Shown here piece after piece: positions 24,428 through 50,270 of a stretch of 64,000 nt of DNA. A program made the translations under genes and the position numbers. This stretch comes from Burkholderiaceae bacterium (lineage in GTDB: Bacteria; Pseudomonadota; Gammaproteobacteria; Burkholderiales; Burkholderiaceae_C): NCBI GenBank assembly GCA_017992055.1, contig JAGOPK010000003.1, positions 372,001 through 436,000 on the forward strand. The letters are read 5' to 3'. Position 1 is the first letter of the stretch. Every line of letters starts with the position of its first letter. The notes beneath the pieces were generated by a model. It was not told where the DNA came from and did not search any database. It saw only the letters and a list, made by a program, of their open reading frames with translations.

Positions 24428-25774
24428 TCACGGGCGACGAAGATCGGGACGCCAGTCGGCGAAGCCCAGGCCCTGGCCAGCCAGCTGCAGCAGCAGCGGC
24501 GCCGGTTCCCACCAGTCGCCCAGCTCGGCATGCAGGGCCTGCACGCGTGCGGCAATGTGCCTCAGGCCGATGCGGTCGGCCATGTGCATCGGCCCACCCT
24601 GGGCCGCCGGGAAGCCGTAGCCGGTGAGGTAGACCAAATCGATGTCGCCCGGCCGCAGCGCAATGCCCAGTTGCAGCAGGCGCGCGCCTTCGTTGACCAT
24701 GCCATACAGGCAGCGCTCCAGGATCTCCTCGTCGGAGATGTCGCGGCGCCGGATGCCCCGCTGCTGCGCATAGTCGACGATGAAGGCCTCCAGTTCCGGG
24801 TCACGGTGGGGCTTGCGATCACCGGCCTCGTAGCGGTACCAGCCGCGCCCGCTCTTCTGACCCAGGCGCCCGGCATCGACCAGGGCCATGATCAGATCGT
24901 TCCAGCGCCGCTTTGGATCGCGGGTGGCCATCTGCGCCTTGCGCGTGGGATGGCCGACGTCGTTGCCGGCCATGTCGTGCACGGCGAAGATGCCCATGGC
25001 ATAGCCGAAGCGCGTCAGCGCCGCATCCACCTGGTGCGGCAGCGCGCCGTCCTCGACCAGGAAATGCGCCTCGCGGTTGTATTGGCGGAACAGCGCATTG
25101 CCGATGAAGCCCGGATAGACCCGGGCCAGCACCGCCACCTTGCCCAGGCGCGGGCCCAGGGCCATCAGCGTGGCGATCACCTCGTCGGCCGTGACCTCGG
25201 TGCGCACCACCTCCAGCAGCCGCATCACCTGGGCCGGGCTGAAGAAATGCGCACCCACCACATCCTGCGGCCGGCGGGTGACGGCGGCGATGGCCGCGAT
25301 GTCCAGGCCCGAGGTGTTGGTGGCCAGGATGGCGCCGGGTCGCGCCACCGCGTCCAGCTCACGGAACAGGCGCTGCTTGAGCGCCAGGTCCTCGAACACC
25401 GCCTCGATGAACAGGTCGGCGTCGGCGGCATCGGCCAGCGCCAGCGTGCCACGGATCAAGGCCAGGCGCTGGGCCATCTCGGCCTCGCCCAGCCGGCCTC
25501 GCTGCACGCTCTGGCGGTAGTTGTCGCGGATGCGTGCCAGGCCGCGCTCCAGGCCGGCGGCGTCGGCATCGATCAGCCACACCGGCAGACCGGCATTGGC
25601 AAAGGCCATGGCAATGCCGCCGCCCATGGTGCCGGCACCGATCACCGCCGCGCAGCGCACCGGCCGCTGCGGCGTGTCGGCCGGCAGACCGGTGCGGGAG
25701 GCCTCGGCCGTGGCCCGCGCCACATGCTCGGCCGAAGCCGCACGATCGGCATCGCTCAGGTCGAACACCGACAT
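24428..25774 (-). CDS. 3-hydroxyacyl-CoA dehydrogenase (NAD-dependent)
   Basis: A 448-residue enzyme. The NAD-binding Rossmann motif AAVIGAGTMGGGIAMAFANA lies near residues 43-62. The catalytic His is in VVGAHFFSPAQVM, with the conserved GFIGNAL downstream. Two C-terminal dehydrogenase domains follow; the second contains RCLYGMVNEGARLL and YGFPAAQGGPM. The architecture is that of FadB without its hydratase half. It would oxidise 3-hydroxyacyl-CoA to 3-ketoacyl-CoA. Its ATG overlaps the upstream crotonase stop (TGATG), and GGAGG lies seven bases before it. It is the last gene of the leftward arm of the catabolic cluster. Confidence 0.92.
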   Translation of the reverse strand: MSVFDLSDADRAASAEHVARATAEASRTGLPADTPQRPVRCAAVIGAGTMGGGIAMAFANAGLPVWLIDADAAGLERGLARIRDNYRQSVQRGRLGEAEMAQRLALIRGTLALADAADADLFIEAVFEDLALKQRLFRELDAVARPGAILATNTSGLDIAAIAAVTRRPQDVVGAHFFSPAQVMRLLEVVRTEVTADEVIATLMALGPRLGKVAVLARVYPGFIGNALFRQYNREAHFLVEDGALPHQVDAALTRFGYAMGIFAVHDMAGNDVGHPTRKAQMATRDPKRRWNDLIMALVDAGRLGQKSGRGWYRYEAGDRKPHRDPELEAFIVDYAQQRGIRRRDISDEEILERCLYGMVNEGARLLQLGIALRPGDIDLVYLTGYGFPAAQGGPMHMADRIGLRHIAARVQALHAELGDWWEPAPLLLQLAGQGLGFADWRPDLRRP

Positions 25775-26580
25775 CACCGGCCCTCCCCGTCGGCACCTTC
25801 GCCACGCAGTGGCTTGGCACGGCCCTCGACAAATTCGCGCAGCCGCTGCTCAACCTCGGGCGGCCGGGCCATGGCCGAATTGAGCTGCTCCATGAACAGG
25901 CCGTCGTCGTGCGACAGGTCCATCACCCGCGGCAATACGTTGACGATCTTCCAGTTGGTCTCGAGGGTGTTCTGCGCAATGCGCGCGGCCAGCGCACGCG
26001 CCTTGTCCAGCGCCTGACCTTCGGGCTCGACATAGCGCACCAGATGCTCAGCCAGGGCCTCGTCGGGGTTGAGCAGCCGGCCGGTGAGCATCATGTCGGT
26101 CATCACCGTGGTGCCGACCACGCGCTGGATGCGCACCGTGCCACCGCCGCCGACGAAGATGCCACGCTGGCCTTCGGGCAGGCCGAAGAAGGCGCTGCGG
26201 TCGCACACGCGCACATGGGCGGCCATGGCCAGCTCCAGGCCGCCGCCGACCACCGCACCCTGCAACGCCGCGACAAAGGGGATGGGGCCACGCTCGATCT
26301 CATCGAACACCACATGCCAGTTGTGGCGCTTGCGCTTGCGCGCTGCCATGATCTTGCCGGTGGCCCGCGCCAGGGCCTCGGCCAGGTCCAGGCCGGCGCA
26401 GAAGTTGGCGCCATGGCCATGCAGCACGGCCACCTGGGCCTCGTCGTGGGCACGTTGCACGGCGGCCTGCAGGGCCTGGATCACCGCATCGTTGATGGCA
26501 TTGCGCTTGTCGGGGCGGTTCAGGCCGATCAGCGCCACGGCGCCATCGAGTTGGTAGCTGACCAGGTTGTCGTCGCTCAT
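25774..26580 (-). CDS. Enoyl-CoA hydratase/isomerase (crotonase)
   Basis: A 268-residue crotonase-family protein. Both acid positions of true hydratases are present: GGGLELAMAA (first Glu) and GLPEGQRGIF (second Glu). The oxyanion-hole segment is GANFCAGLDL. An insertion rich in Arg/Lys (MAARKRKRHNWH) lies near residue 82. It would hydrate an enoyl-CoA for the adjacent 3-hydroxyacyl-CoA dehydrogenase. ATG and stop overlaps with both neighbours (ATGA upstream, TGATG downstream) show it is translationally coupled in the leftward operon. Confidence 0.9.
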   Translation of the reverse strand: MSDDNLVSYQLDGAVALIGLNRPDKRNAINDAVIQALQAAVQRAHDEAQVAVLHGHGANFCAGLDLAEALARATGKIMAARKRKRHNWHVVFDEIERGPIPFVAALQGAVVGGGLELAMAAHVRVCDRSAFFGLPEGQRGIFVGGGGTVRIQRVVGTTVMTDMMLTGRLLNPDEALAEHLVRYVEPEGQALDKARALAARIAQNTLETNWKIVNVLPRVMDLSHDDGLFMEQLNSAMARPPEVEQRLREFVEGRAKPLRGEGADGEGR

Positions 26581-27548
26581 CAAAGGTCCAGTTCGATCAT
26601 CGGGGTCTTGGCGCCGGAGCAGCAGATCATCATCCGCCGGCCCTCGGCCTTCTCGGCGTCGCTGAGCACCAGGTCGCGGTGCTCGGGCACGCCGCACAGC
26701 ACCTGCGTCTCGCAGGTGCCGCACACGCCTTCGCGGCAGGAATGGGGCGGCTCGATGCCGATGGCCAGCAGCGCATCCAGGATGCTCTGGCCAGCGGCCA
26801 CCTGCAGGCTGCGGCCGCTGCGCGCCAGCCGCAGCTCGAAGCCGCCCTGCGGCGCGGCATCGCGCACGCCGGCAAAGCGCTCCAGGTGCACGCGCTCGCG
26901 CGGCAATGCCGCGGTGGCGGCCTCGAAGGCATCCAGCAATCCAGCCGGGCCGCAGGCATAGACATGGGCACCCGCGGGCAGTGCCGCGACGATGGCATCC
27001 AGGTCCAGCGGCGCATCGGCAGCGCCGGGCTCCTGGTCGCAGCGCAGGTCCAGGCGGGCCCCGGCCTGCTCGGCCAGGCTGCGCAGCTCGGCCACGAAGG
27101 CCATCTGCGCACGCCGTCGCGCCGCATAGTGCAGGGTCCAGGGGCGACCCAGGGCCGTGAGCCGGCGCGCCATGGCCAGCAGCGGCGTGATGCCGATGCC
27201 GCCAGCGATCAGCACCGAGTGCGTGGCATCCTCGCGCAGCATGAAGTGGTTGCGCGGCCCGTCGGCCTGCAGCACGGCGCCGGGGCGCAGCGACTCGTGC
27301 AGCCAGCGCGAGCCGCCGCGGCTGGCGGCGTCCAGGTTGACCGCGATGCACCAGCGCTCGTGCTCGCCCGGCCGGATCAGCGAATAGCTGCGCACCAGGC
27401 CGTTGCCCAGGTGCAGGTCCACATGGGCTCCGGCCTCGGCCACGGGCAACCGCCCGGCCGGGTCCAGCGGACGCAGCTCGATGCCCAGGATGCCCTCGGC
27501 CTCCCAGGTCAGCGCATGCACGCGCAGCAGTCGCAAGGCGGTGCTCAC
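26580..27548 (-). CDS. Rieske oxygenase reductase (VanB/phthalate-dioxygenase-reductase type)
   Basis: A 322-residue iron-sulfur flavoprotein that passes electrons from NAD(P)H to a Rieske oxygenase. The flavin domain has RSYSLIRP. The nucleotide domain has GGIGITPLLAMARRL and YACGPAGLLDAF. A C-terminal plant-type [2Fe-2S] domain carries Cys ligands in SCREGVCGTCETQVLC and a distal MICCSGAK. This order (flavin, nucleotide, ferredoxin) defines class IA reductases. The GTG start overlaps the Rieske oxygenase stop (GTGA). It is the only reductase in the cluster, although two oxygenases are present. Confidence 0.92.
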   Translation of the reverse strand: MSTALRLLRVHALTWEAEGILGIELRPLDPAGRLPVAEAGAHVDLHLGNGLVRSYSLIRPGEHERWCIAVNLDAASRGGSRWLHESLRPGAVLQADGPRNHFMLREDATHSVLIAGGIGITPLLAMARRLTALGRPWTLHYAARRRAQMAFVAELRSLAEQAGARLDLRCDQEPGAADAPLDLDAIVAALPAGAHVYACGPAGLLDAFEAATAALPRERVHLERFAGVRDAAPQGGFELRLARSGRSLQVAAGQSILDALLAIGIEPPHSCREGVCGTCETQVLCGVPEHRDLVLSDAEKAEGRRMMICCSGAKTPMIELDL

Positions 27549-28828
27549 AGGTCGATCACCGTGATCTCGCGCTGCGGCACGCCCAGCGCCGCCTCGCTGG
27601 CCCGGCGCACCGCATCGGGCTGGCCGGCATGGAAGATGAAGCCCTGCAGCAGCGTGCGCCACTTCGGGTGGCGCAGATAGTCCTCGCGCGGCAGGCCGTG
27701 CAGGAAGAACTCGCGGTGGTCGCTGGGCAGGCGCAGCGGGTGGTTGGCTGCCGCATCGCGCAGCACGCCCTTGGGGTCGTGGCCGGCGGCCACCGCCTCG
27801 ATGTCGTTGAACAGCTGGCGCCGCAGCATGGCGATGCCACGGTCGCTGGCACCCAGCAGCTCGCGGCCGCGGTCGGTGACCGTGCCCTGGCCGACCCAGG
27901 CCACGATGTCCTGGTTGATGACGTGGCTGGTGATCCAGCGGCCGCTGCCGGCATCGCGGATCGGGCTGCTCCAGGTCGGGATCTCGCCCTGCACATAGGG
28001 CTCGCTTTCACGCGGCACGCGGATGAAGCTCCAGGTCACCGACAGCGTATTGCCGTCGTCGATGGGCACGCGCCATTCGAAGTGGTCGCCCAGGAAAAAT
28101 CCGTTGGGCCACAGGCAGACGCGGCCGATGGTCCACAGCGGGTTGTGCTCGTCGGTGTCCTCGCTGATGCGCTTGTAGACGAAACCGTGCTCGAACTCCT
28201 CGAAGGCCAGCTTCAGGTGGCGCGGCGCATAGGGCGCGCCGCGGCCGGCCAGGCGGCGACTCCAGTTGGCGTGCATCCACTCGAAGTGCACCGGGTCGAT
28301 GGAGTTCTCCTGCGTCTGCAGCCAGTTGCAGGGCACCTCGGAGAACACCGCCTGAACAAAGCCGTTGCGCCAGTGGAAGGGCTCCCAGTCCGGCAGCTCG
28401 GGCGCCGGCAGCGGGCCGATGTAAGCCCACAGCAGGCCAGCCCGGGCGCGCACCAAACCGGCCTGCAAACAGGCCTTGGCACGCAGGCGCTGCTGCGCAT
28501 CGACCACGTCCTCGAAGGGCTGTTCGATGCAGCGGCCGTCGACCGCGTACTGCCAGCCGTGGTAGCTGCAGCGTATGCCCTGCTGCTCGACGATGCCATA
28601 GGCCAGGTCGGCATTGCGATGGCGGCAGCGCCGCTCCACCAGGCCATAGTCGCCCGACAGGCTGCGAAAGACCACGAAGTCCTCGCCCATCAGGCGCAGC
28701 GGCTTGATCGGGCTGCGCTCCAACTCGTCCACGCCGGCCACCGGGTGCCATTGGCGGCGCAACACCTCGCCCATGGGCGTGCCGGGGCCCACCTCGGTGA
28801 GCTGCCGGTTCTTGTCAGCGCTGAGCAT
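27545..28828 (-). CDS. Rieske [2Fe-2S] aromatic oxygenase, alpha subunit (first)
   Basis: A 427-residue oxygenase. Rieske ligands are Cys68, His70, Cys87 and His90 (RRCRH ... CSYHGW). The mononuclear iron site is in ENSIDPVHFEWMH, with His181 and His186. It resembles the one-component-oxygenase group that includes phthalate 4,5-dioxygenase and vanillate O-demethylase, so it would hydroxylate or demethylate an aromatic acid using electrons from the reductase at 26580. No separate beta subunit is present, as usual for that group. It follows the Bug receptor and is translationally coupled to the reductase. Confidence 0.92.
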   Translation of the reverse strand: MLSADKNRQLTEVGPGTPMGEVLRRQWHPVAGVDELERSPIKPLRLMGEDFVVFRSLSGDYGLVERRCRHRNADLAYGIVEQQGIRCSYHGWQYAVDGRCIEQPFEDVVDAQQRLRAKACLQAGLVRARAGLLWAYIGPLPAPELPDWEPFHWRNGFVQAVFSEVPCNWLQTQENSIDPVHFEWMHANWSRRLAGRGAPYAPRHLKLAFEEFEHGFVYKRISEDTDEHNPLWTIGRVCLWPNGFFLGDHFEWRVPIDDGNTLSVTWSFIRVPRESEPYVQGEIPTWSSPIRDAGSGRWITSHVINQDIVAWVGQGTVTDRGRELLGASDRGIAMLRRQLFNDIEAVAAGHDPKGVLRDAAANHPLRLPSDHREFFLHGLPREDYLRHPKWRTLLQGFIFHAGQPDAVRRASEAALGVPQREITVIDL

Positions 28829-28842: not shown

Positions 28843-29829
28843 TCAGCTGGGCTTGAAGCCCGAGGCCTGGATGATCGGCCCCCAGTAGGCCAGCTCGGCG
28901 CGCAGCAGCGCATCGGTCTCGCGGGCATTGCGGAACAGCGGCTGGGCCCAGAGCTTGGTGGTCAGCACCTGCTGCACCTCGGGCTCGGCCAGGATCTTGC
29001 GCACCGCCTCCTGCATGCGCTGCAGCGCCGCCGCCGGCGTGCCCGCCTTGGCCCACATGCCGGTCCAGCCCTCGCCCGAGGTGACGGCAATGCCCTGCTC
29101 GGCCAGCGTGGGGATGTCCGGCATCAGCGGCGAACGCTGCCGGCTGAAGATGCCCACCACGCGGATCTTGCCGGCCTTGTGCTGGGCCAGCATGCCGTCG
29201 AGCAGGCTGATGGCCGCCGGCACCTGGCCGCCGACCAGATCGGACACCATCGGCGGCGATCCCTTGTACGGGATGACCTGCAGATCCAGGCCGGCGGCCT
29301 TGGAGAAGGCAATGCCCAGAAAGTGGTTCTGCCCACCCAGGCCGGGCGTGCCAAAGGCCGCCAGCGCGGGATTGGCCTTGGCCCAGGCGACGAAGGACTG
29401 GGCATTGCTGGCGCCGGTGTTCAGCGCCACGCCCATGCCCAGCGGATAGGTGACGAAGGCGCCGACCGCGGCGAAGTCGCGCAGCATGTCCCAGCGCAGC
29501 TGGTCCTTGTAGACCAGGGTCTGGAAGGTCGGCGTGGCATTCGGCGCGATCATGTAGGTCAGGCCGTCGGCCGGTGCGGCCAGCACCGCATCGGCCGCCA
29601 GCCGGCCGCCGATGCCGGGTTTGTTGTCGACGATCACCGGCTGGCCCAGCAGCGCGGGCAGGCGGTCGGTGATGACGCGGGCGATGGCATCGGTGGCGCC
29701 GCCGGGCGGAAAGCCCACCAGCACACGGATCGGCGCCTTGTCGGCATGGGGCGCCTGGGCGCGCAACGCACCGGGCAGGGCCAGGGCGGCGCCGGCGGCG
29801 GCCACCCACTGTCGGCGCGACGGGTTCAT
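28843..29829 (-). CDS. Bug/TctC-family periplasmic solute-binding protein
   Basis: A 328-residue periplasmic receptor. The signal peptide is MNPSRRQWVAAAGAALALPG with RAQA cleavage. The first binding loop is LVGFPPGGATDAIARV and the second is NKPGIGGRLAADAV. The C-terminal WAKAGTPAAALQRM segment is typical. These proteins bind organic or aromatic carboxylates and hand them to a membrane transporter, which is not encoded in this window. Its position between two Rieske oxygenase genes indicates the ligand is probably the cluster substrate. It overlaps the upstream oxygenase by ATGA. Confidence 0.92.
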   Translation of the reverse strand: MNPSRRQWVAAAGAALALPGALRAQAPHADKAPIRVLVGFPPGGATDAIARVITDRLPALLGQPVIVDNKPGIGGRLAADAVLAAPADGLTYMIAPNATPTFQTLVYKDQLRWDMLRDFAAVGAFVTYPLGMGVALNTGASNAQSFVAWAKANPALAAFGTPGLGGQNHFLGIAFSKAAGLDLQVIPYKGSPPMVSDLVGGQVPAAISLLDGMLAQHKAGKIRVVGIFSRQRSPLMPDIPTLAEQGIAVTSGEGWTGMWAKAGTPAAALQRMQEAVRKILAEPEVQQVLTTKLWAQPLFRNARETDALLRAELAYWGPIIQASGFKPS

Positions 29830-31067
29830 GCCGCCACCTCGGTGAGCACGCGCCAGTCGCTGCCGCTGGGCAGCACGCCACCAATGGAGCGGATCTGACG
29901 GTAGTCCAGCTCGGGGTTGTCGGCCAGCGTCGGCGTCTTGCCGGCCTGGAACTCGCGCACCGACTTCAGCAGCGCCTGGCGCACGCGCAGCACCGCGCCA
30001 TCGGCCGAGCACAGCTGCTCCTGGCTGCGGTCGTAGATCGGCCCCTGGCTGAGGAACATCGCGAAGTCCTCGGTGCCCAGGTGCTGCGGAAAGCCGGTGG
30101 CATGGCCGCGTCGCATCAGATCGCGGTTCTGGCCCCAGTTGTCGTCGGGGCCACCGGGCGGCAGCGGCGGGAAGTTCCACACATCGGGCGAGGCCGACAT
30201 ATTGGTCATGCCCAGCGGCTTGGCCGGATTGAAGTGCACGAACCAGGCGCGGTGCGTGACGTCGTCGACCGGCGTGCTGAAGAACACCGTGCTGGGCCCG
30301 CCTTCGTTGGGCGGGCAGATGATGCCGTACCAGGGCATCACGAAGTTGTTGACGCGCGCATAGATCCGGTCGTCACCAACGGCGCGCACGGCCGCGTATC
30401 GGTAGCCATAGGGTCGGTCCTCGAACTCCAGCTTGGGCGCGATGGCCTGGTTCATCAGCAGGCGCTGATTGCCACCGCCGGCGCTCATCTGCGTGGACGA
30501 TTCGTGCAGCACGCTGACATGCGAGCTGTCCATCGAGGCCTCGACGCCCTGCACCCAGTTGGTGGGCACCTCGGTGCTGGTCACCGAGCGCTGCGCCTCG
30601 GGCAGGTCGACGAAGGGCAGGTCGGGAAAGCGCGGCGGCACATCGCCGCGGCCCAGCCAGGCCCAGACGATGCCGCCACGGTCCACCGCGCGGTAGCGGT
30701 TGACGCGCACATGCTTGCAGAACTGCGCCTGGTCGCCCGTGTGGTTGGGCGCGTCGATGACGGCGCCATCGGGCGCCACCTTCCAGCCGTGGTAGATGCA
30801 GCGCAGGCCCTCGGGCTCGTTGCGCGCCAGCGCCATCGAGGCGCGGCGGTGCGGGCAGCGCTCGTCGATCACACCCACCGTGCCATCGGGGCTGCGCAGG
30901 GCCACGTAGTCGGTGCCCAGCAGGCGGATGCGGTACGGGCGGCCGCCGGCCTCCAGCTTGCTGGACGGGATGGCCGGGATCCAGTAGTGCTGGCGGATCA
31001 TCTCGCCCATGGGCGCGCCGTTCTCGACGCGGCACAGCAGCTCGTTGTCTTCGCGGGTCATGGCCAT
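29826..31067 (-). CDS. Rieske [2Fe-2S] aromatic oxygenase, alpha subunit (second)
   Basis: A 413-residue oxygenase of the phthalate-4,5-dioxygenase type. Rieske ligands are Cys71, His73, Cys90 and His93 (ERCPHRR ... CIYHGWK). The mononuclear iron site is in ASMDSSHVSVLHE, with His183 and His188. The N-terminal MTREDNELLCRVENGAPMGE is characteristic of this subgroup. AGGAG precedes the ATG at 31067, 13 bases downstream of the amidohydrolase. It shares the reductase at 26580 with the first oxygenase. The two proteins differ clearly in sequence, so they probably act on different substrates or successive steps. Confidence 0.92.
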   Translation of the reverse strand: MAMTREDNELLCRVENGAPMGEMIRQHYWIPAIPSSKLEAGGRPYRIRLLGTDYVALRSPDGTVGVIDERCPHRRASMALARNEPEGLRCIYHGWKVAPDGAVIDAPNHTGDQAQFCKHVRVNRYRAVDRGGIVWAWLGRGDVPPRFPDLPFVDLPEAQRSVTSTEVPTNWVQGVEASMDSSHVSVLHESSTQMSAGGGNQRLLMNQAIAPKLEFEDRPYGYRYAAVRAVGDDRIYARVNNFVMPWYGIICPPNEGGPSTVFFSTPVDDVTHRAWFVHFNPAKPLGMTNMSASPDVWNFPPLPPGGPDDNWGQNRDLMRRGHATGFPQHLGTEDFAMFLSQGPIYDRSQEQLCSADGAVLRVRQALLKSVREFQAGKTPTLADNPELDYRQIRSIGGVLPSGSDWRVLTEVAA

Positions 31068-31080: not shown

Positions 31081-32076
31081 TCAGTCCTTCTTGAACGCGC
31101 GGCTGTACAGGCGGCGGCAGTTGCATTCGAAGATGTCGGCACGGTCGGCGGCGCTGAGCCAGCCGATGTTCTCGATCACCGGCTTCATGTCGTCGTAGTC
31201 GCGGCCGGTCTCGGGATCGCGGGCACTGCCGGTGCCCGGCTTCTCGGTGCCGAAGACCACGTTCTTCACGCCGGCCACCTTGAGCAGCAGCTCGATCGAG
31301 TCCTGGCTGTAGTTGCAGGTGTCGAAGTGCAGCTGCCGCAGTTGCGCGTCGAACGGGATCTTGTCGCCACGGCGCACGCTCCAGCTGCGAAAGCGCCCCA
31401 TCTGGTAGGGAATGGCGCCGCCGCCGTGGGCGACGATGATCTTCAGCTGCGGGAACTTCTGGAACACATCCGAGGACAGCAGCGAGATCACCGCGATGCT
31501 TTCCTCGTTGATGAACTTCAGCGTATAGCTCTCGCGTGGGCTGCAGCTGCCGGCCGAATGGATCAGCGCGGGCACGTCCAGGCGCACCATGGCCGCGTAC
31601 AACGGATGCCAGAATGCATCGCCCAGGCCCGGCGGCGGCAGTTCCGAGCCCTCTGTCGGGTCCGGGTTGAGCAGACAGCCGACGAAGCCCAGCTGCTCGA
31701 CACAGCGCTCCAGCTCGGCCACGCAGCGCTCGGCCGGCGACTCGTGCAGGTACTGCGGCAGACCGGCCACGCCGCGGAAGCGGTCGGGAAAGCAGTCGAC
31801 CACGCGGGCGATGATGTTGTTGCAGTGGCGGGTCCAGATCTCGGTCACGCGCGCCGGCTTCACCGAGTGCATCTGCAGATAGGGCCGTGGCGAGATGAAC
31901 TGCAGGTCGGTGCCGACGCTGTCGTTGATGGCCACCAGCTCCTGGGCCACCTTGCGCACCGCCTCGTCGGGGATCTTCGGCGGCACCGACGGGTTGCCGC
32001 GGCCACCCACCAGCTCGGCCATGAAGCGAAAGCTCTGCGGCGGCATCACCACATGGGCGTGGGAATCGATGATCAA
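31081..32076 (-). CDS. Amidohydrolase family protein, LigJ-like (4-oxalomesaconate hydratase-like)
   Basis: A 331-residue amidohydrolase-2 family protein. Metal ligands are seen in DSHAHVV (residues 4-10) and AHGGGAIPYQMGRF. Segments such as DCFPDRFRGVAGLPQ, CLLNPDPTEG and HFDTCNYSQ recall LigJ/GalB hydratases of the protocatechuate-4,5 and gallate pathways. It could also be a 2-pyrone hydrolase or decarboxylase. A TTG start at 32076 is chosen because AGGAG lies seven bases upstream and the protein then begins with the canonical MIIDSHAH. Together with the LigB-like dioxygenase and RraA aldolases across the divergent promoter, it suggests a meta-cleavage pathway (inference). Confidence 0.82.
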   Translation of the reverse strand: MIIDSHAHVVMPPQSFRFMAELVGGRGNPSVPPKIPDEAVRKVAQELVAINDSVGTDLQFISPRPYLQMHSVKPARVTEIWTRHCNNIIARVVDCFPDRFRGVAGLPQYLHESPAERCVAELERCVEQLGFVGCLLNPDPTEGSELPPPGLGDAFWHPLYAAMVRLDVPALIHSAGSCSPRESYTLKFINEESIAVISLLSSDVFQKFPQLKIIVAHGGGAIPYQMGRFRSWSVRRGDKIPFDAQLRQLHFDTCNYSQDSIELLLKVAGVKNVVFGTEKPGTGSARDPETGRDYDDMKPVIENIGWLSAADRADIFECNCRRLYSRAFKKD

Positions 32077-32102: not shown

Positions 32103-32480
32103 TCAGGCGATCCAGGCCAGCACCTCGAGCTGCACCTGCTGGCCATGGCCCAGCGGCTGCACCGCGATGTGGCGCGCGGGGCGCTGGTCGGCATCGGGAT
32201 AACAGGCCAGCCACTGCGCATTGACCACGTTGCGCAGGCCGTCGTCGGCCAGCGTCACCGCCAGCTTGACCACATGCTCCGGCCCGCCGCCGCCGGCGGC
32301 CAGCAAGGCGCGCAGATTGGCAAAGGCATGGGCCACCTGCGTGGCGCCATCGGCCGGCAGCGAACCGTCCGACGGGTCCTTGCCAGCGATGGCCGACGAG
32401 CACAGCAGCGGCCCGACGCGTGCGCCCAGCGGGATGGGAGCGCGGTGACCGACCTGGGGCAGGTGCAGGCTGCGGGCCAT
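32103..32480 (-). CDS. RidA/YjgF family deaminase-like protein
   Basis: A 125-residue RidA-family protein. Family features are the Arg-containing PARHIAVQPLG near the C-terminus (Arg binds the substrate carboxylate) and EVLAWIA at the end. Classical members hydrolyse reactive enamines/imines; many Burkholderiales paralogues sit in aromatic catabolic operons with unknown roles, sometimes hydrolysing ring-derived intermediates. It is translationally coupled to the upstream GntR gene by overlap (ATG and stop share bases at 32480). Confidence 0.85.
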   Translation of the reverse strand: MARSLHLPQVGHRAPIPLGARVGPLLCSSAIAGKDPSDGSLPADGATQVAHAFANLRALLAAGGGGPEHVVKLAVTLADDGLRNVVNAQWLACYPDADQRPARHIAVQPLGHGQQVQLEVLAWIA

Positions 32481-33271: not shown

Positions 33272-33451
33272 ACATAATGGTAAATCATGAGTGCCAGCAG
33301 ACCGCCTCCACCAGGCTCTCCATAGACAGGAATAAGCGATTGATTTACATGATATTTTTTGACTGGTGGGGTTTTCGTGTTGCGCATCGACCTGGTGAAT
33401 ACCCCGACTTTGGCATCCACATAGACCACGTCTGGCATATTGAACAGCATT

Positions 33452-43491: not shown

Positions 43492-44157
43492 ATGACCCCC
43501 GAACAAGACGCCAACGTCGCGCGCGCCGCGCGGCTGGACACGGCCACGCTCAGCGATGCGCTGGACAAGCTGGGCATCGCCGGCCAGTGCCAGCGCATCA
43601 AGCCGCGCAGCAGCGGCTTTCGCATGGCCGGCCGGGCCTGGACCCTGCTCTACGGCCCGGCCGGCCAGCCCGCCGGCACCGTGGGCGACTACATCGACGA
43701 CGTGCCGCCGGGCAGCGTGGTGGTGCTGGACAACGGCGGCCGCGACAACGCCACCGTGTGGGGCGACATCCTGACCGAGATCGCCCACCGCCGCGGCATC
43801 GCCGGCACGCTGATCGACGGCATCTGCCGCGACACCGCGCTGTGCCTGGAACTGGGCTATCCAGTGTTCAGCCGTGACCACTGGATGCGCACCGGCAAGG
43901 ACCGCGTGCAGGTCGAGGCCACCGGCGTGCCGGTGAACATCGGCGATGCCCGTGTCGCGCCCGGCGACCTGGTCAAGGGCGATGCCGACGGCGTGCTGGT
44001 GATCCCGCGCGAACACGAGGACCGCGTGCTCGACACCGCCGAGGCCATCGAGCGTGCCGAGGACGCCATCCGCCAGGCCGTGCGTGGCGGCATGCGCCTG
44101 GACGAGGCGCGGCGCCAGCACCGCTACCACCAGCTGCAGACGCGGAGCCCGCAATGA
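43492..44157 (+). CDS. RraA/HMG-aldolase family protein (copy 2)
   Basis: A 221-residue paralogue. It contains IDGICRD (Asp109) and TVWGDIL (acidic residue Asp92), so the metal and pyruvate-binding motifs look intact. GGAG precedes the ATG. It is the best candidate for a working LigK-like aldolase together with copy 3. Its stop overlaps the copy 3 ATG (ATGA). Confidence 0.87.
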   Translation: MTPEQDANVARAARLDTATLSDALDKLGIAGQCQRIKPRSSGFRMAGRAWTLLYGPAGQPAGTVGDYIDDVPPGSVVVLDNGGRDNATVWGDILTEIAHRRGIAGTLIDGICRDTALCLELGYPVFSRDHWMRTGKDRVQVEATGVPVNIGDARVAPGDLVKGDADGVLVIPREHEDRVLDTAEAIERAEDAIRQAVRGGMRLDEARRQHRYHQLQTRSPQ

Positions 44158-44822
44158 GCACGCCCCGCTTCGACTGGAACAGCACCACGCGGCGCGAGCC
44201 CGCCGGGGTCGACGCCGACAGCGTGGCCGCGGCGCGCCGCCTGCCCACGGCCACGCTGCATGAGGCCGCCGGCAAGCTGGGCGCCCTGCCCTCGGCCATC
44301 AAGCCGGTGGCCGCGGGCATGGCCCTGGCCGGCCCGGCGCTGACCGTGCATTCGCCGCCCGGTGACAACCTGTGGCTGCACCGCGCACTCGACATCGCCC
44401 GCCCCGGCGAGGTGCTGGTGGTGCATTGCAGCGGCGCCCACGAGCACGGCTACTGGGGCGAGATCATGGCCACCATGGCGCTGGCCCGAGGCCTGGCCGG
44501 CCTGGTCATCGACGGCTGCGTGCGCGACGGCGCGCTGCTGGCACAGCTGGGCTTTCCGGTGTTTGCACGCGGCCTGTGCATGCGCGGCACCGGCAAGGAT
44601 TTCGGCGCCGTCGGCTGGCTCAACCATCCGGTGTGGATGGGCGAGGTGGCGGTGCAGGCCGGTGACCTGATCGTCGGCGACGGCGACGGCGTGCTGGCCT
44701 TGCCCCAGGCGCGCGCGGCCGAGATCGTGGCCCGCGGACGGCAGCGAGAAACCGACGAAGCCGACATCCTGCGCCGCCTGCAGGCCGGCGCCTCGACGCT
44801 GGACGTGTATGGCTGGCGCTGA
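44154..44822 (+). CDS. RraA/HMG-aldolase family protein (copy 3)
   Basis: A 222-residue paralogue. It contains IDGCVRDG (Asp120) and GYWGEIM (acidic residue Glu103). It has a longer N-terminal extension (STPRFDWNSTTRREPAG) than the other copies. Motifs appear intact. The 3' end overlaps the crotonase gene by 14 bases. Confidence 0.87.
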   Translation: MSTPRFDWNSTTRREPAGVDADSVAAARRLPTATLHEAAGKLGALPSAIKPVAAGMALAGPALTVHSPPGDNLWLHRALDIARPGEVLVVHCSGAHEHGYWGEIMATMALARGLAGLVIDGCVRDGALLAQLGFPVFARGLCMRGTGKDFGAVGWLNHPVWMGEVAVQAGDLIVGDGDGVLALPQARAAEIVARGRQRETDEADILRRLQAGASTLDVYGWR

Positions 44823-45573
44823 ACCGACGCTGCAAATCGCCGGCGCAGTGGCCACCGTCACGCTGCGCCGCCCGGTGGTGGCCAACCGGCTGGAGCTGGA
44901 GGACCTGGCGCGCCTGCAGCAGTTCCTGCAGCAGGTGGATGACGATGCCTCGCTGCGCGTGCTGCTGCTGCGCGGCGAGGGCCGGCATTTCTGCAGCGGC
45001 TTCAATGTCGAGCGTGTCGGCGCCGACGGCGCCGCCGCCGGCCCGCGCTTCGAGGCCCTGGCCGATGCGCTGGAACAGGCCCGGCCGGTGACCGTGCTGC
45101 AGCTGCAGGGTGGGGCCTATGGCGGTGCGGTGGATCTGGCGCTGGCCGCCGACTTCCGCATCGGCGGGCCGGCGTCCGAGCTGCGCGTGCCGGCGGCCCG
45201 GTTGGGCCTGCACTTCTACCGCGGCGGCCTGGAGCGGGCCGTGGCACGCATCGGCCTGCCCTGGGCCCGACGGCTGTTCGTGGCCGCGGACACGCTGGAT
45301 GCCACCACGCTGCATGGCGCCGGCCTGCTCGACCGCTTGGCCGACAGCAGCGAGGCGGTCGAGGCCACCGCGACCGGCTTCTGCGAGCAACTGGCTGGCC
45401 TGGCGCCGCTGGCCCTGCTGGGCATGAAAAAGCACCTCAACCGCATCGCCCGCGGCCGGCTCGACGCGCAGGATCTGGCACGCGACATCGCCGCAGCCGA
45501 TGCCTCGGCCGACCTGCAGGAAGGCGCACGCGCCTGGCGCGAGAAGCGACCGCCGCGCTTCGAAGGCCGCTGA
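44809..45573 (+). CDS. Crotonase-family protein lacking both hydratase glutamates
   Basis: A 254-residue crotonase-fold protein. The oxyanion segment GRHFCSGFNV is present. The first acid position reads GGAVDLALAAD (Asp for Glu), and the second, usually PE, reads RVPAARLGL (Ala for Glu). It is therefore unlikely to be a normal enoyl-CoA hydratase and may be an isomerase, hydrolase or decarboxylase of the superfamily. The ATG at 44809 lies inside the preceding gene; no better start is visible downstream without losing the first beta strand. Confidence 0.82.
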   Translation: MAGAEPTLQIAGAVATVTLRRPVVANRLELEDLARLQQFLQQVDDDASLRVLLLRGEGRHFCSGFNVERVGADGAAAGPRFEALADALEQARPVTVLQLQGGAYGGAVDLALAADFRIGGPASELRVPAARLGLHFYRGGLERAVARIGLPWARRLFVAADTLDATTLHGAGLLDRLADSSEAVEATATGFCEQLAGLAPLALLGMKKHLNRIARGRLDAQDLARDIAAADASADLQEGARAWREKRPPRFEGR

Positions 45574-45583: not shown

Positions 45584-47194
45584 ATGGACATGGAATTCGA
45601 TTACGTCATCGTCGGCGCCGGCACCGCCGGCTGCGTGCTGGCCAACCGCCTGAGCGCCGATGGCCGCCACCGCGTGCTGCTGCTGGAGGCCGGTGGCGGC
45701 GACAGCCATCCGTGGATCCGCATGCCGCTGGGCTTTCTGCGCGCGTTGCAGCAGCCGCGCTTCACCTGGGGTTACCACAGCGAGCCCGAGCCGGCCCTGG
45801 GCGGGCGGGTGCTGCCGGTGCCGCGCGGCCGGCTGCTGGGCGGCTCGTCGTCGATCAACGGCATGTTCCATATCCGCGGCGACCGGCGCGACTTCGACGA
45901 CTGGGCCGCCGCCGGCTGCAGCGGCTGGTCCTACGACGAGCTGCTGCCCTACTTCAAGCGCAGCGAGTCCAGCTGGCGCGGCGACGGTCCCTGGCACGGC
46001 GGCAGCGGCCCGCTGCAGGTCAACCGCATCGATGACCGCCACCTGCTGCCCGGCCCGCTGCGCGAGGCCGCAAAGGCCGCCGGCCACCGCCTCAACGACG
46101 ACTACGACGGCGAGCACCACGACGGACTGGCCGCCGGCGAAGTGGCCATCGACCGGCGCGGACGGCGCCACAGCAGCGCCCGGGCCTACCTGCACCCGGT
46201 GCGCGCTCGTGCCAACCTGCAGGTCTGGACCCAGGCGCGCAGCGAGCGCCTGCTGTTCGAGGCCGGTCGCGCCAGCGGCGTGCAGCTGCAGCGTGGCGGG
46301 CAGCGCATCACGGTGCGGGCGCGGCGGGAGGTGCTGCTTGCCGGAGGCGCCTACGGCAGTCCGCAGCTGCTGATGCTGTCGGGCATCGGACCTGGCGAGC
46401 CGCTGCAGCGCCTGGGCATCCCGGTGCTGCGAGACCTGCCCGGCGTGGGTGCCAACCTGATCGAGCATCCGCGCATGCCGCTGCAGTTCACGCTGAAGCG
46501 GCCGCTGAGCTTTCTCAACCAGCTGCGGCTGGACCGCGCCGTGCTGTCGGTGCTGCGCTGGGCCTTCACCGGCCGTGGCGCCTTCGCCACCCAGGTCTGC
46601 CATGGCACGCTGCTGCTGAAGACCGATGCCGGGCTGGACCGGCCCGACTTCCAGCTGCTGTGCAACCCGGTGCGGCTGGATGCGCGGCTGTGGTTCCCAG
46701 GCATCGCGCCAGCCCAGCCGCATGCCTTCTACGTCACCGTCTGCCAGCTCTATGCCAAGAGCCGTGGCCAGGTGACGCTGCGCTCGCCCGATGCCGCCGA
46801 GGCGCCGCGCATCGCGCTGAACCTGTTCAGCCATGACGACGATCGGCGCAGCATGCGCGAGGCCCTGCGCGCCGCGCGGCGGCTGTATGCCACGCCGCCA
46901 TTGACGGACCTGATCGACATCGAGACCCTGCCCGGCGCCGCGCTGCGCAGCGACGCCGAACTGGACCAGGCCATCCGCGAGCTGGGTGGCATCACCCACC
47001 ACCCGGTGGGCACCTGCGCCATGGGCACCGGGCCGCAGGCGGTGGTCGACCCGCGGCTGCGCGTGCACGGCCTGGCCGGCCTGCGCGTGGCCGACGCCTC
47101 GGTGATGCCTGGCATCGTCGGTGGCAACACCAATGCGGCCACGCTGATGATTGCCGAGAAGGCCGCCGACATGATCCTGGAGGACGCACTGTGA
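45584..47194 (+). CDS. GMC-family FAD oxidoreductase (choline dehydrogenase-like)
   Basis: A 536-residue flavoprotein. The FAD-binding motif VIVGAGTAGCVLAN starts at residue 8. The GMC signature is RGRLLGGSSSINGMFHIRG. Catalytic His is in ITHHPVGTCAMG and the conserved Asn in VGGNTNAATLMIAEKAADM. It would oxidise a primary alcohol to an aldehyde with electrons passed to FAD. Its stop overlaps the GTG of the aldehyde dehydrogenase, suggesting successive alcohol and aldehyde oxidation. Confidence 0.92.
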   Translation: MDMEFDYVIVGAGTAGCVLANRLSADGRHRVLLLEAGGGDSHPWIRMPLGFLRALQQPRFTWGYHSEPEPALGGRVLPVPRGRLLGGSSSINGMFHIRGDRRDFDDWAAAGCSGWSYDELLPYFKRSESSWRGDGPWHGGSGPLQVNRIDDRHLLPGPLREAAKAAGHRLNDDYDGEHHDGLAAGEVAIDRRGRRHSSARAYLHPVRARANLQVWTQARSERLLFEAGRASGVQLQRGGQRITVRARREVLLAGGAYGSPQLLMLSGIGPGEPLQRLGIPVLRDLPGVGANLIEHPRMPLQFTLKRPLSFLNQLRLDRAVLSVLRWAFTGRGAFATQVCHGTLLLKTDAGLDRPDFQLLCNPVRLDARLWFPGIAPAQPHAFYVTVCQLYAKSRGQVTLRSPDAAEAPRIALNLFSHDDDRRSMREALRAARRLYATPPLTDLIDIETLPGAALRSDAELDQAIRELGGITHHPVGTCAMGTGPQAVVDPRLRVHGLAGLRVADASVMPGIVGGNTNAATLMIAEKAADMILEDAL

Positions 47195-48666
47195 CCCCTG
47201 ACGCCGGCCCCGCGCCTGCCAGCTTCCCCACCCGGCTGCTGATCGATGGCCGCTGGTGCGACGCCATCGACGGCGCCACGCTGCCGGTGACCGACCCCTG
47301 CAGCGGCGCCGTGTTCGCCCAGGTCGCCGCCGGTGGCGCGGCCGACATCGACGCCGCGGTGGCCGCGGCACGGCGTGCCTTCGACGGCCCGTGGTCGGCC
47401 ACCAGGCCGGCGCAGCGTGCGCGTCTGCTGTGGCGCCTGGCCGAGCTGATCGACGCCCATGCCGACGAGCTGGCTGCGCTGGAGGTGCGCAATACCGGCA
47501 AGCCGCTGGCCATGGCGCAGCGCTTCGACGTGGCCATGGCCGCCGAATGCCTGCGTTATCACGCCGGCTGGTGCACCAAGCTGGAAGGATCCACGCGAAC
47601 CCTGTCCCTGCCCGGCGAATGGCATGCCTACACCCGGCGCGAGCCACTGGGCGTGGCCGGCCTGATCGTGCCCTGGAACGTGCCGCTGCCGATGGCCGTG
47701 GGCAAGATTGCGCCCGCCCTGGCGGCCGGCTGCACGGCGGTGCTCAAGCCGGCCGAGCTGACGCCGCTGACCGCCTTGCGCCTGGGCGAGCTGGCGCTGC
47801 AGGCCGGCCTGCCGCCGGGCGTGCTGAACATCGTCAGCGGCCTCGGCGCCACGGCCGGCCAGGCCCTGGTCGAGCATGCGGGCGTGGACAAGCTGTCGTT
47901 CACCGGCAGCACCGCGGTGGGCCAGCGCATCCTGGCCGCCGCCGCCGGCAACCTGAAGCGCGTGTCGCTGGAGCTGGGCGGCAAGAGCCCGGTGTTCATC
48001 TTCCCGGATGCCGACCTGGAGCGGGCCATCCCGGCCGCCGCGGCCGGCATCTTTGCCAATGCCGGCCAGGTCTGCGCCGCCGGCTCGCGGCTGTACCTGC
48101 ACCGGCGCATCGCCGAGCGGGTGCTGGAGGGCGTGGCCGAACGAGCCCGCAGCCTGCGCGTGGCACCGGGCCTGCAAGCCGATGCCGAGATGGGCCCCCT
48201 GATCAGCGAGCGCCAACGCGAGCGTGTGCTCGACTATGTGGACAGCGGACGCCGCGAAGGTGCATCGGTGCTGACCGGTGGCAGCGCCCTGCCCGGCCCG
48301 GGCTTCTTCGTGCAGCCCACGGTGATGGTGGACACGCGCCCGGACATGGCCATGGTGCGCGATGAAATCTTCGGCCCGGTGCTGGCCACCTTCGTCTTCG
48401 ACGACGAGGACCTGCCGGCCCTGGCTGCCCTCGGCAACGACACGGCCTACGGACTGTCGGCCTCGATCTGGACCCGCGACCTGGGTCGCGCCCACCGCCT
48501 GGCGGCGCGGCTGAAGGCCGGCAATGTGCGGGTCAACGCGGCGGTGGCACCGGATTTCGCCATGCCCTTCGGCGGCATGAAGCTGTCGGGCTGGGGCCGC
48601 GAGAACGGTCGCGAAGGCATCGAGGGCTTCACCGAGCTGAAGTCGGTGGCCATGCAGCTGGACTGA
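47191..48666 (+). CDS. Aldehyde dehydrogenase
   Basis: A 491-residue NAD(P)-dependent aldehyde dehydrogenase. Catalytic Cys295 lies in GQVCAAGS, the general base Glu261 in LELGGKSPVF, and the conserved Asn163 in PWNVPL. Length is normal. The GTG start at 47191 has GGAGG seven bases upstream. It follows the GMC oxidoreductase with an overlap, so it probably oxidises that enzyme's aldehyde product to a carboxylate. Confidence 0.93.
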   Translation: MTPDAGPAPASFPTRLLIDGRWCDAIDGATLPVTDPCSGAVFAQVAAGGAADIDAAVAAARRAFDGPWSATRPAQRARLLWRLAELIDAHADELAALEVRNTGKPLAMAQRFDVAMAAECLRYHAGWCTKLEGSTRTLSLPGEWHAYTRREPLGVAGLIVPWNVPLPMAVGKIAPALAAGCTAVLKPAELTPLTALRLGELALQAGLPPGVLNIVSGLGATAGQALVEHAGVDKLSFTGSTAVGQRILAAAAGNLKRVSLELGGKSPVFIFPDADLERAIPAAAAGIFANAGQVCAAGSRLYLHRRIAERVLEGVAERARSLRVAPGLQADAEMGPLISERQRERVLDYVDSGRREGASVLTGGSALPGPGFFVQPTVMVDTRPDMAMVRDEIFGPVLATFVFDDEDLPALAALGNDTAYGLSASIWTRDLGRAHRLAARLKAGNVRVNAAVAPDFAMPFGGMKLSGWGRENGREGIEGFTELKSVAMQLD

Positions 48667-48680: not shown

Positions 48681-49463
48681 ATGGATCTGGGCATCACCGG
48701 ACGCAAGGCCCTGGTCTGCGCCTCCTCGCAGGGGCTGGGCCTGGCCTGCGCCACCGCGCTGGCCGAGGCCGGCTGCGAGGTCTGGCTCAATGGCCGCGAC
48801 GCCGGGCGGCTGCAGGCCGCGGCCGCGTCGCTGCGCGGCCTGGGCGCGGCCGGCGTGCACGAGGCAGCCGCCGACCTCAACACCGAAGCCGGTCGCCAGC
48901 AGCTGCTGGCCGCCTGCCCGGCGCCGGACATCCTGGTCAACAACAACGCCGGCCCCCCGCCAGGCGAGCTGGCCGACTGGGACCATGCGGCCTGGACCGC
49001 GGCGCTGGAGGCCAATCTGATCGCCGGCGTGCTGCTGATCCGCGCCGTGCTGCCCGGCATGCGCGCGCGGCGCTTCGGCCGCATCGTCAACATCACCAGC
49101 GCGATGGTCAAGACGCCGCATGCGGCGATGGGCCTGTCCACCGCGGCACGCGCCGGGCTGACCGCCGTCAGCAAGGCGCTGGCGCGCGAGGCAGTGGTGG
49201 ACAACGTGACGATCAACCAGCTGCTGCCCGAACGCTTTGACACCGCGCGCCAGGCCTTCATGGCGCGGCGGCTGATGGCCGCAGAGCCGGAACTGACGCT
49301 GCAGCAGGCGCGCCAGCGCATTGCCGACACGGTGCCGGCACGGCGCTTCGGCCGGCCCGAGGAGTTTGGCGCGGCCTGTGCCTTCTTCTGCAGCGCCCAG
49401 GCCGGCTTCATCACCGGCCAGAACCTGCAGCTGGATGGGGGGGCCTACGCCGGCCTGGTCTGA
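48681..49463 (+). CDS. Short-chain dehydrogenase/reductase family protein with altered active site
   Basis: A 260-residue SDR-fold protein. The cofactor motif is ASSQGLGLACA near residue 14 and the NNNAG motif is intact. The usual YxxxK reads SxxxR (Ser153, Arg157) 13 residues after Ser140, so both catalytic residues are replaced. Related SDR-like proteins without the Tyr are known, often annotated as 3-oxoacyl-ACP reductases but not shown to have that activity. AGGAG precedes the ATG. Confidence 0.85.
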   Translation: MDLGITGRKALVCASSQGLGLACATALAEAGCEVWLNGRDAGRLQAAAASLRGLGAAGVHEAAADLNTEAGRQQLLAACPAPDILVNNNAGPPPGELADWDHAAWTAALEANLIAGVLLIRAVLPGMRARRFGRIVNITSAMVKTPHAAMGLSTAARAGLTAVSKALAREAVVDNVTINQLLPERFDTARQAFMARRLMAAEPELTLQQARQRIADTVPARRFGRPEEFGAACAFFCSAQAGFITGQNLQLDGGAYAGLV

Positions 49464-49520
49464 GTCGGACACGTCGCCGCCGGTGATACTGGTGGCCCTG
49501 CCACTGCACGGAATCGGTCG

Positions 49521-50270
49521 ATGAACCAAGCCCTTGATTTCAGCGGCCAGCGCGTGCTGGTGGTCGGCGGCTCCAGCGGCATCGGCAACGGCGTGGCCCA
49601 GGCCTTCCGCGGCCAGGGTGCCGAGGTCCATGTCTGGGGCACGCGCGCCAGCGCCGCCGACTATGCGGGCGTGGCCGGCAGCGATCTGCAGGGCCTGCAC
49701 TATGCCGGCGTCGACGTGGCCGATGCCGGTCAGGTGGACGCTGCGCCCCAGCCCGGAGGCGACGGCGCGCGGCTGGATGTGCTGGTGCTGTGCCAGGGCA
49801 CGGTGGTCTACCAGCGTGGCGAGTTCGAGCGCGAGGGCTGGCAGCGCGTGATGGCCGTCAACCTGGACAGCCTGATGCACTGCTGCCGGCGCCTGCGGCC
49901 GGCGCTGCAGGGCGGCGGCCGCATCGTCATCGTCAGCTCCATTGCCGGCCTGGGCGCCAACATCGGCAACCCGGCTTACGCGGCGTCCAAGGCCGGTGCC
50001 ATCAGCCTGACGCGCACCCTGGGCGTGGCCTGGGCGCCCGAGGGCATACGCGTCAACGGCCTGGCGCCAGGCCTGGTGGACACCAAGCTGACCGAGGTCA
50101 CGACGCGCCACCCCAAGCGCCTGCAGGGCGCGCTGGCGGCCATTCCAGCGGGCCGGCTGGGCACGCCCGAGGACATGGCCGGCGTGGTGCTGTTCCTGGC
50201 CTCGCCGCTGGCCGCCTACCTGGCCGGCCAGACCATCGCCTGCGACGGCGGGCTGTCGCTGGCGCGCTGA
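49521..50270 (+). CDS. Short-chain dehydrogenase/reductase
   Basis: A 249-residue classical SDR. The NAD(P) motif is VVGGSSGIGNG near residue 13. The active site has SSIAG followed by Tyr153 and Lys157 (YAASK), and the C-terminus has LAGQTIACDGG. It would oxidise or reduce a hydroxyl/keto group of a pathway intermediate. It is the last gene of the rightward arm. It converges with the giant exoprotein gene, with only 2 bases between the stops and no terminator seen. Confidence 0.9.
   Translation: MNQALDFSGQRVLVVGGSSGIGNGVAQAFRGQGAEVHVWGTRASAADYAGVAGSDLQGLHYAGVDVADAGQVDAAPQPGGDGARLDVLVLCQGTVVYQRGEFEREGWQRVMAVNLDSLMHCCRRLRPALQGGGRIVIVSSIAGLGANIGNPAYAASKAGAISLTRTLGVAWAPEGIRVNGLAPGLVDTKLTEVTTRHPKRLQGALAAIPAGRLGTPEDMAGVVLFLASPLAAYLAGQTIACDGGLSLAR

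Follow-up and report, generated by a model that had tools for sequence, protein, structure and literature searches.

A divergent Burkholderiaceae gene cluster with similarities to the LigX/LigZ/LigY ring-cleavage route

The question addressed here is which type of aromatic ring cleavage, and which class of substrate, is served by a large divergent catabolic gene cluster in the genome of a Burkholderiaceae bacterium (GenBank assembly GCA_017992055.1). The window, that is, the whole stretch of 64,000 nucleotides analysed (contig JAGOPK010000003.1, positions 372,001 to 436,000), belongs to contig C6 of this 5.9 Mb genome, and the cluster extends from 24428 to 50270. Gene calling and Pfam searches placed 25 genes (g19 to g43) in this interval, nine on the minus strand running leftwards from 33217 and 16 on the plus strand running rightwards from 33475, in agreement with an initial annotation that had described about 25 genes in two divergent arms meeting at one GntR-type control region. 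The enzymes listed in that annotation were all recovered, namely two Rieske oxygenases with one reductase, a LigB-like dioxygenase, three RraA proteins, a thiolase/DUF35 pair, a CoA-transferase, an NDP-forming acyl-CoA ligase, acyl-CoA dehydrogenases, alcohol and aldehyde oxidation enzymes and two Bug receptors; its inventory omitted a RidA-family protein, a 3-hydroxyacyl-CoA dehydrogenase (3HCDH) and the crotonases.

The LigY-type C-C hydrolase route is known from sphingomonad degraders of lignin dimers. Judged from family placement, synteny and conserved motifs, there is about an even chance that the core of the cluster is a variant of this LigX/LigZ/LigY route, acting on a 5-R-vanillate-type ring (3-methoxy-4-hydroxy-5-R-benzoate).

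The hydrolase, the RraA proteins and their counterparts in SYK-6

The amidohydrolase gene g25 (31081..32076, minus strand) is predicted from a PDB search and from trees to encode a C-C hydrolase of meta-cleavage products. In a phmmer search against the PDB the protein scored 279 bits with LigY and 240 bits with LigJ. A tree of 42 rows, from which ten remote or duplicate rows of an earlier quick tree had been excluded, separated ten LigJ-type rows (support 100/100, branch length 1.34) from 32 LigY-type rows (100/100). The g25 protein lay on the LigY side, with a path length of 1.93 to LigY and 3.02 to LigJ, in a subclade of eight rows (99/98) that included Polaromonas, Acidocella, Parasphingopyxis (two identical rows), Hephaestia and two further genomes. 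In the quick tree, which contained four remote rows, the LigJ branch fell beside the g25 clade (SH-aLRT 90), and the rooting is therefore unsure. LigY proper and LigJ each have a fixed but different residue at 36 sites; of these, g25 agrees with LigY at 15, with LigJ at six and with neither at 15. Distances and motifs favour a position nearer LigY. The description of g25 as a LigJ-like hydratase had to be abandoned, as the trees place it in the LigY superclade and outside the LigJ clade, leaving no LigJ-clade hydratase within the cluster. The host has a separate LigJ on contig C8, together with two genes that by eye we take to resemble LigI and LigC, and five further LigB-family genes outside the cluster.

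The RidA-family gene g26 (32103..32480, minus strand) lies directly beside g25; in G940, L073 and L074 a RidA gene is found between the LigZ-like and the LigY-like gene. A LigY-type hydrolase accompanied by an RraA pair and RidA occurs on plasmids of Rhodococcus koreensis, Bradyrhizobium, Aminobacter (here without RidA) and Novosphingobium aromaticivorans (pNL1), at loci L034, L035, L037 and L038; the stretch of pNL1 that was read contained no LigB gene.

A close parallel was found in Sphingobium SYK-6, for which genome G910 was taken because the LigY encoded there matches the PDB sequence at 100% identity. The dehydrodivanillate (DDVA) cluster of this strain (L162) contains homologues of nine genes of the window, g20, g22, g25, g28, g32, g33, g35, g36 and g37. 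It comprises, in order, a TonB-receptor open reading frame (ORF; taken as ddvT), an NDP-forming ligase (42% identity to g28), a crotonase (53% to g20), a thiolase (34% to g32), a DUF35 protein (28% to g33), an alpha/beta hydrolase-like ORF, an MFS-like ORF (taken as ddvK), LigZ (37% to g35), two RraA proteins (55% to g36 and 73% to g37), LigY (45% to g25), a large ORF and LigXa (57% to g22). No RidA homologue was detected in this cluster. The available text of PMC12997858 assigns ligZ to SLG_07720 and ligY to SLG_07750, and from the gene order between them we infer that the two RraA genes are SLG_07730 and SLG_07740. When six SYK-6 locus tags around ligZ were sought in the open-access literature, that of ligZ alone was mentioned, in one paper. 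SYK-6 also possesses a second LigY/LigZ-like set (C1:2088001-2108000, L163), which includes a Rieske oxygenase as well as three RraA genes and whose LigY-like protein is 61% identical to LigY.

The three RraA-fold proteins of the window are encoded on the plus strand by g36 (42798..43478), g37 (43492..44157) and g38 (44154..44822). The sequence Asp/Glu-x20-Arg-Asp is, we assume, the motif of RraA-fold aldolases acting on 4-hydroxy-4-methyl-2-oxoglutarate (HMG) and 4-carboxy-4-hydroxy-2-oxoadipate (CHA). Among rows assigned by best BLAST match, some of which share a genome, the residue preceding x20-Arg-Asp was Gly in all 48 rows of g36, Asp in all 42 rows of g37, and Glu (29) or Asp (7) in the 36 rows of g38, the window itself having Gly, Asp and Glu, respectively. 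The motif is therefore carried by the aldolase-like g37 and the LigK-like CHA/HMG aldolase g38 and is lacking in g36, the homologue of the SYK-6 gene that follows ligZ; the counterpart of g37 precedes ligY.

Hidden Markov models built from these loci were applied to a set of 103; having been trained on the same, non-independent loci, they describe a pattern and are no test of it. A LigY-type hit was obtained in 29 loci, with g36 in 26 and g37 in 25, and five loci had a LigJ-type hit only, with g36 in one and g37 in one. After weak hits had been set aside (L046, L068 and L109 of LigY type at no more than 114 bits; L060 of LigJ type at 145 bits), g36 was present in 25 and g37 in 24 (one weak) of 26 strong LigY-type loci (>400 bits), and neither was present in any of the four strong LigJ-only loci (>600 bits). 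G1135 had both hydrolase types and neither RraA protein. According to the available part of PMC12673573 (2025), 4-carboxy-2-hydroxypentadienoate (CHPD) is hydrated to 4-hydroxy-4-methyl-2-oxoglutarate, which is then cleaved to two pyruvates, and Table 2 marks the hydration in SYK-6 as not identified. The g36/g37 pair is a candidate CHPD hydratase/aldolase, and g36 together with g37 offers a concrete candidate for that step.

The Rieske oxygenases and the ring-cleavage dioxygenase

In a FastTree phylogeny of Rieske oxygenases, g22 (27545..28828, minus strand) was nested in the LigXa clade (21 rows, local support 100), so that the cluster possesses the LigXa-clade oxygenase of the LigX/LigZ/LigY pathway. 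The second oxygenase, g24 (29826..31067, minus strand), is phthalate-4,5-dioxygenase-like and belongs to a different clade; it has a LigXa_C Pfam match and is 29% identical to SYK-6 LigXa. Both are accompanied by a single Rieske reductase, g21 (26580..27548, minus strand), with an NAD-binding and a C-terminal 2Fe-2S domain. A search for g22 in 25 genomes gave 16 matches at an E-value of 1e-80 or better, one of them at only 41% identity; the other 15, at 60% identity or more, are likely orthologues, and g22 is accordingly listed as an accessory member. In Polaromonas sp. C04 (G294, L023) a GntR gene (69% to g27), a g24-like Rieske gene (57%) and a reductase (40%) were found from about position 7681, some 5 kb past the cluster.

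The dioxygenase gene g35 starts at 41773 and ends at 42789 (plus strand, 338 amino acids). This corrected start restores the first iron-ligand His, and an enzyme without that residue was dropped as an artefact of the wrong start codon. When g35 was aligned by profile with three of the host's LigB-family proteins, Gln102 fell on the second His iron ligand, which gives His12-Gln102-Glu294 instead of the canonical LigB His-His-Glu found in the protocatechuate 4,5-cleavage/gallate pathway. Among 75 aligned rows (23 loci were excluded as near-duplicates), the second position was Gln in 71 and His in four (L082, L084, L085 and L090); the first His was conserved in all 73 rows reaching it, and the catalytic His and Glu294 were conserved in all 75. 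The four His-bearing loci come from Reyranella/Rhodospirillales and offer a natural comparison for the two iron ligands. SYK-6 LigZ shares the Gln motif of g35, and a Gln at this position therefore does not imply that function has been lost. The dioxygenases of the sphingomonad relatives of g25 fall in the same large group of the tree as g35. The family is evidently wider than the present pathway, since among the 69 loci that have a g35 relative but no hydrolase of either type, 48 also lacked g36 (L056, L058 and L059 of these are cluster pieces).

It is tentatively proposed that g36 and its SYK-6 homologue by ligZ are a distinct RraA-fold CHPD hydratase of LigY-type pathways, acting alone or in complex with g37, and that the LigZ family comprises extradiol dioxygenases with a natural His-Gln-Glu iron site; this joint proposal is unlikely to hold.

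Conservation, control region and remaining genes

A scan of genome contigs for the dioxygenase family yielded at least 507 confirmed relatives, the best 80 loci of which were retained for synteny. When window proteins were matched to locus ORFs, 26 of these 80 loci (L040-L063, L068 and L071, from 25 genomes) proved to share four or more neighbouring cluster genes with their relative order retained. The other 54 lacked the arrangement, and several of them (e.g. L073, L074, L112 and L113) held at least four homologues in different orders. The cluster is thus real and conserved beyond chance. Its occurrence within the order is sporadic, since a g35 relative at an E-value of 1e-10 was present in 23 of 399 genomes, the own genome included, and these were mostly distant, partial matches. 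By their titles the 26 loci derive mostly from Comamonadaceae and other Burkholderiales, the rest being broadly named metagenome-assembled genomes (MAGs) and Acidocella aquatica. The last is an alphaproteobacterium, and the cluster has therefore probably moved between classes.

For the left arm ten genomes were examined, nine of them picked for having g22. In six of them g19-g27 were complete and in order; three others had eight, eight and six of the nine genes, where an ORF-overlap filter may hide some. In Acidocella g19, g20, g21 (32%) and g24 were present and g22 and g23 absent, and the sequences best matching the regulator (53%) and RidA (54%) were located at the far end instead of between the arms. 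The borders of the cluster vary, as g40, g41 and g42 occur in some genomes only and at other places, with g42 adjoining g19 in several relatives. The locus comparison gave no support for g43 as a conserved member.

The two arms diverge from a control region (33249..33464) between the GntR/FCD regulator gene g27 (32480..33217, minus strand; the start is probably 33217, not 33121) and g28. Six hexamers TGGCAT/ATGCCA, at 33249, 33266, 33411, 33433, 33455 and 33459, lie in this predicted operator, compared with 84 in the whole window. In 18 orthologous g27-g28 intergenic regions the hexamer occurred 49 times, whereas 200 single-base shuffles gave a mean of 3.6 and never more than 10, although the hexamer was picked after inspection from shared 8-mers, the regions are related and the shuffle preserves base composition only. 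This enrichment supports one operator system for both arms, and with it the earlier description of two arms sharing one GntR-type control region. A strict palindrome, TGGCATAC-NN-GTATGCCA, was tried as operator and gave no matches, and simple GntR-type patterns were not conserved across the regions.

The minus arm, read from its distal end, consists of the 3HCDH gene g19 (24428..25774; Pfam 3HCDH_N/3HCDH, kept in relatives), the crotonase/enoyl-CoA hydratase gene g20 of the PRK08150 family (25774..26580), reductase g21, Rieske gene g22, the TctC/Bug receptor gene g23 (28843..29805), Rieske gene g24, amidohydrolase g25, RidA g26 and regulator g27. The plus arm opens with the NDP-forming acyl-CoA ligase gene g28 (33475..35634) and two acyl-CoA dehydrogenase genes, g29 (35634..36818), for which the nearest NCBIfam family was pimeloyl-CoA dehydrogenase large subunit, below cut-off, and g30 (36837..37967). 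These are followed by a second TctC/Bug receptor gene, g31 (37964..38947), thiolase g32 (38956..40173; PRK08142, over cut-off), its DUF35/ChsH2-type partner g33 (40191..40562) and a family III CoA-transferase gene, g34 (40567..41757). Beyond g35 and the three RraA genes lie an enoyl-CoA hydratase/isomerase gene of the crotonase family, g39 (44848..45573), the variable members g40 (GMC oxidoreductase, 45584..47194) and g41 (aldehyde dehydrogenase, 47191..48666), and two genes for short-chain dehydrogenases/reductases (SDR), g42 (48681..49463) and g43 (49521..50270). The Thiolase_C protein g32 adjoins the zf-ChsH2/OB protein g33, as in a side-chain thiolase with a DUF35 partner, which may catalyse thiolysis or aldol cleavage. 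No single SYK-6 ligase stood out as the counterpart of g28, the best match being 47% elsewhere in that genome, with about 42-43% in the DDVA cluster and 44% at a third site. Four sphingomonad loci of the g25 clade (L073, L074, G940 and G1030) each carry a CoA-transferase with 37-38% identity to g34, as would be expected if a released acid were activated with CoA; one LigY-proper locus (G1063) also has one (35%).

Elsewhere in the window, positions 388-5562 hold a second acyl-CoA set (two acyl-CoA dehydrogenases, an NDP-forming acyl-CoA ligase and, judged from the sequence only, a crotonase-like ORF), followed by a flavin-containing monooxygenase-like protein and a DUF1254/DUF1214 protein. A 4238-amino-acid protein of two-partner-secretion type (TPS, ESPR, 14 MBG and 13 DUF5650 stretches), unrelated to the catabolic cluster, is encoded at 50273-62989 with a ShlB/FhaC-like partner beside it at 63117-63887.

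Proposed route, alternatives and known systems

In the proposed LigX/LigZ/LigY-type route, g22 and/or g24 with reductase g21 would remove the O-methyl group to give a catechol, and g35 would cleave the ring adjacent to R. The g25 hydrolase would then split the C-C bond of R-CO-CH=C(COOH)-CH=C(OH)-COOH into R-COOH and CHPD, which the g36/g37 pair, with g38, would hydrate, then cleaving the product to two pyruvates. R-COOH would be degraded by the CoA-transferase, NDP-forming ligase, acyl-CoA dehydrogenases, crotonases, 3HCDH and thiolase/DUF35 pair; alternatively or in addition, the same acyl-CoA enzymes may shorten a C3 side chain beforehand, after its alcohol has been oxidised by the GMC and aldehyde dehydrogenase enzymes. 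The regulator g27 would control both arms through the TGGCAT/ATGCCA sites. Hydrolysis of the LigY type would account both for the RraA proteins, through CHPD, and for the acyl-CoA genes, through R-COOH or the C3 side chain. An alkyl- or alkoxy-substituted aromatic acid, as suggested initially, is a possible substrate.

Several observations weigh against this route. The g25 protein falls in a separate clade next to LigY proper, and at 15 of the 36 diagnostic sites it matches neither enzyme; g35 lies outside the LigZ clade, in a sister group of 63 rows to the 12 rows of LigZ and 11 relatives. The nearest non-cluster relatives of g35 (about 50% identity) come from loci in which no gene of LigY type was seen, and in G325 a g24-like Rieske oxygenase (59%) and a g35 homologue are coupled with a LigJ-type enzyme. 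No g22 match at threshold was found in nine of the 25 g35-carrying genomes, some of which are incomplete MAGs, and a tenth had the 41% match only; the LigXa-type step is therefore not essential. The role of RidA g26 is unexplained by the route, and the best SYK-6 match of g28 lies outside the DDVA cluster. In L069 and L072, two of the loci with these nearest g35 relatives, the g35 relative is accompanied by g36 (66% and 64%), RidA and a g21-like reductase. Neither a LigY type nor g37 was seen there over about 10 kb, so that the link between g36 and LigY is not exclusive and the hydratase reading becomes less likely. These loci (L069, 986-11391; L072, 2016-11410) represent a second context for g36, and from their sequence starts we take their neighbours to resemble dihydroxyphthalate decarboxylase, protocatechuate 3,4-dioxygenase and a PanB-like enzyme.

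The substrate may instead be a 5-5' (biphenyl) lignin dimer, either DDVA or a precursor of it that bears C3 side chains, for example a diferulate. In that case the acyl-CoA arm would shorten the chains before the LigXa/LigZ/LigY-type enzymes cleave the DDVA-like core. The identity of g22 to LigXa and the nine homologues in the SYK-6 DDVA cluster, which include the ligase, crotonase, thiolase and DUF35 genes, agree with such a substrate, as does a Polymorphobacter LigY (70% to SYK-6 LigY) near an acetate--CoA-ligase-family gene and a p-hydroxycinnamoyl-CoA hydratase/lyase. This alternative is nevertheless unlikely, given that g35 and g25 stand outside LigZ and LigY proper and that DDVA would release 5-carboxyvanillate, which requires a decarboxylase. 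SYK-6 LigW was identified by its best PDB match (4icm). The host has ten PF04909 places, four of which are g25, LigJ, the LigI-like gene and a fragment below cut-off; comparison with the other six gave no clear LigW orthologue (best 26% identity over 251 amino acids). A member of another decarboxylase family, none of which was sought, could serve instead. DDVA itself is thus doubtful as the substrate, and the cluster was not classed as a DDVA pathway because its dioxygenase stands outside the LigZ clade and no LigW orthologue was found among the places compared; g25 does belong to the superclade of LigY C-C hydrolases.

A gallate-type route, as initially annotated, would have the dioxygenase form oxalomesaconate, followed by LigJ-like hydration and RraA aldolase cleavage. 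Apart from the LigK-like g38, it draws on g35 homologues in loci with LigJ-type enzymes (G325, L039 and L087). Gallate-type chemistry is unlikely because g25 belongs to the LigY superclade, g22 to the LigXa clade and g35 to the LigZ family, and because g36/g37 match the SYK-6 pair; with the host LigJ and five other LigB-family genes encoded elsewhere, and the RraA pair keeping company with LigY types and found in none of the four LigJ-only loci, we regard the full route as very improbable. Somewhat better placed, if still quite improbable, is a true ring dihydroxylation by g24, with SDR g42 as dihydrodiol dehydrogenase and a non-methoxylated substituted benzoate as substrate, the catechol passing to the LigZ/LigY-type enzymes. 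The best PDB match of g24 is a chain named putative phthalate 4,5-dioxygenase, Acidocella keeps g24 where g22 is missing, and the compact G325 cluster includes a g42-like SDR; against this, g22 of the O-demethylase LigXa clade is present in 15 of 25 relatives and the position of g42 is mobile among them. That cluster (L028, 6081-13703) comprises TctC, the g24-like Rieske gene, a reductase, the g35 homologue, RidA, the LigJ-type hydratase and the SDR (58%). Finally, the Gln in place of the canonical His, so widespread among the g35 rows, might signify that dioxygenase activity has been lost, which is extremely improbable when the gene taken as SYK-6 ligZ, whose product is named OH-DDVA dioxygenase in the available text of PMC6874591, has the same residue.

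The same gene order was not found described in the open-access literature, and to that extent the initial statement that no described pathway has the full set still stands; it missed the close parallel of the SYK-6 DDVA cluster. With the protocatechuate 4,5-cleavage/gallate pathway (LigAB, LigJ, LigK) the window shares the LigB fold, a LigK-like aldolase and the amidohydrolase fold, and differs in that g25 is not LigJ, g35 has Gln for a His iron ligand, and LigJ and other LigB-family genes are located elsewhere in the host. The Variovorax ifc isoflavone cluster (PMC11069340) likewise represents aromatic degradation in Comamonadaceae by ring cleavage and a hydrolase. It was rejected as a parallel, as it uses different enzyme families (an FAD monooxygenase, a glyoxalase-type dioxygenase, an alpha/beta hydrolase and cupins), and its main text as available never uses the terms Rieske, RraA or amidohydrolase. 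The mhq DDVA route of Paenibacillus sp. B2, in the available part of PMC12673573, follows the same proposed order of demethylation, extradiol cleavage, C-C hydrolysis, hydration and HMG aldolase, with an unrelated demethylase and dioxygenase and with UxuA as its proposed hydratase. Compared with the SYK-6 DDVA cluster (ligXa, ligZ, ligY, ddvK, ddvT), the window has Bug receptors in place of DdvK/DdvT, a GntR regulator, a second Rieske oxygenase, RidA and the LigK-like g38, and adds two acyl-CoA dehydrogenases, a CoA-transferase and 3HCDH; g35 and g25 occupy separate clades, and no LigW orthologue was found in the host. The two clusters have in common a LigXa-clade Rieske oxygenase, a LigZ-family dioxygenase, a LigY-superclade hydrolase, two RraA proteins, an NDP-forming ligase, a crotonase, a thiolase and a DUF35 protein, and the proposed route would extend LigY-type cleavage to a broad set of Burkholderiales and an Acidocella, coupled to an acyl-CoA arm.

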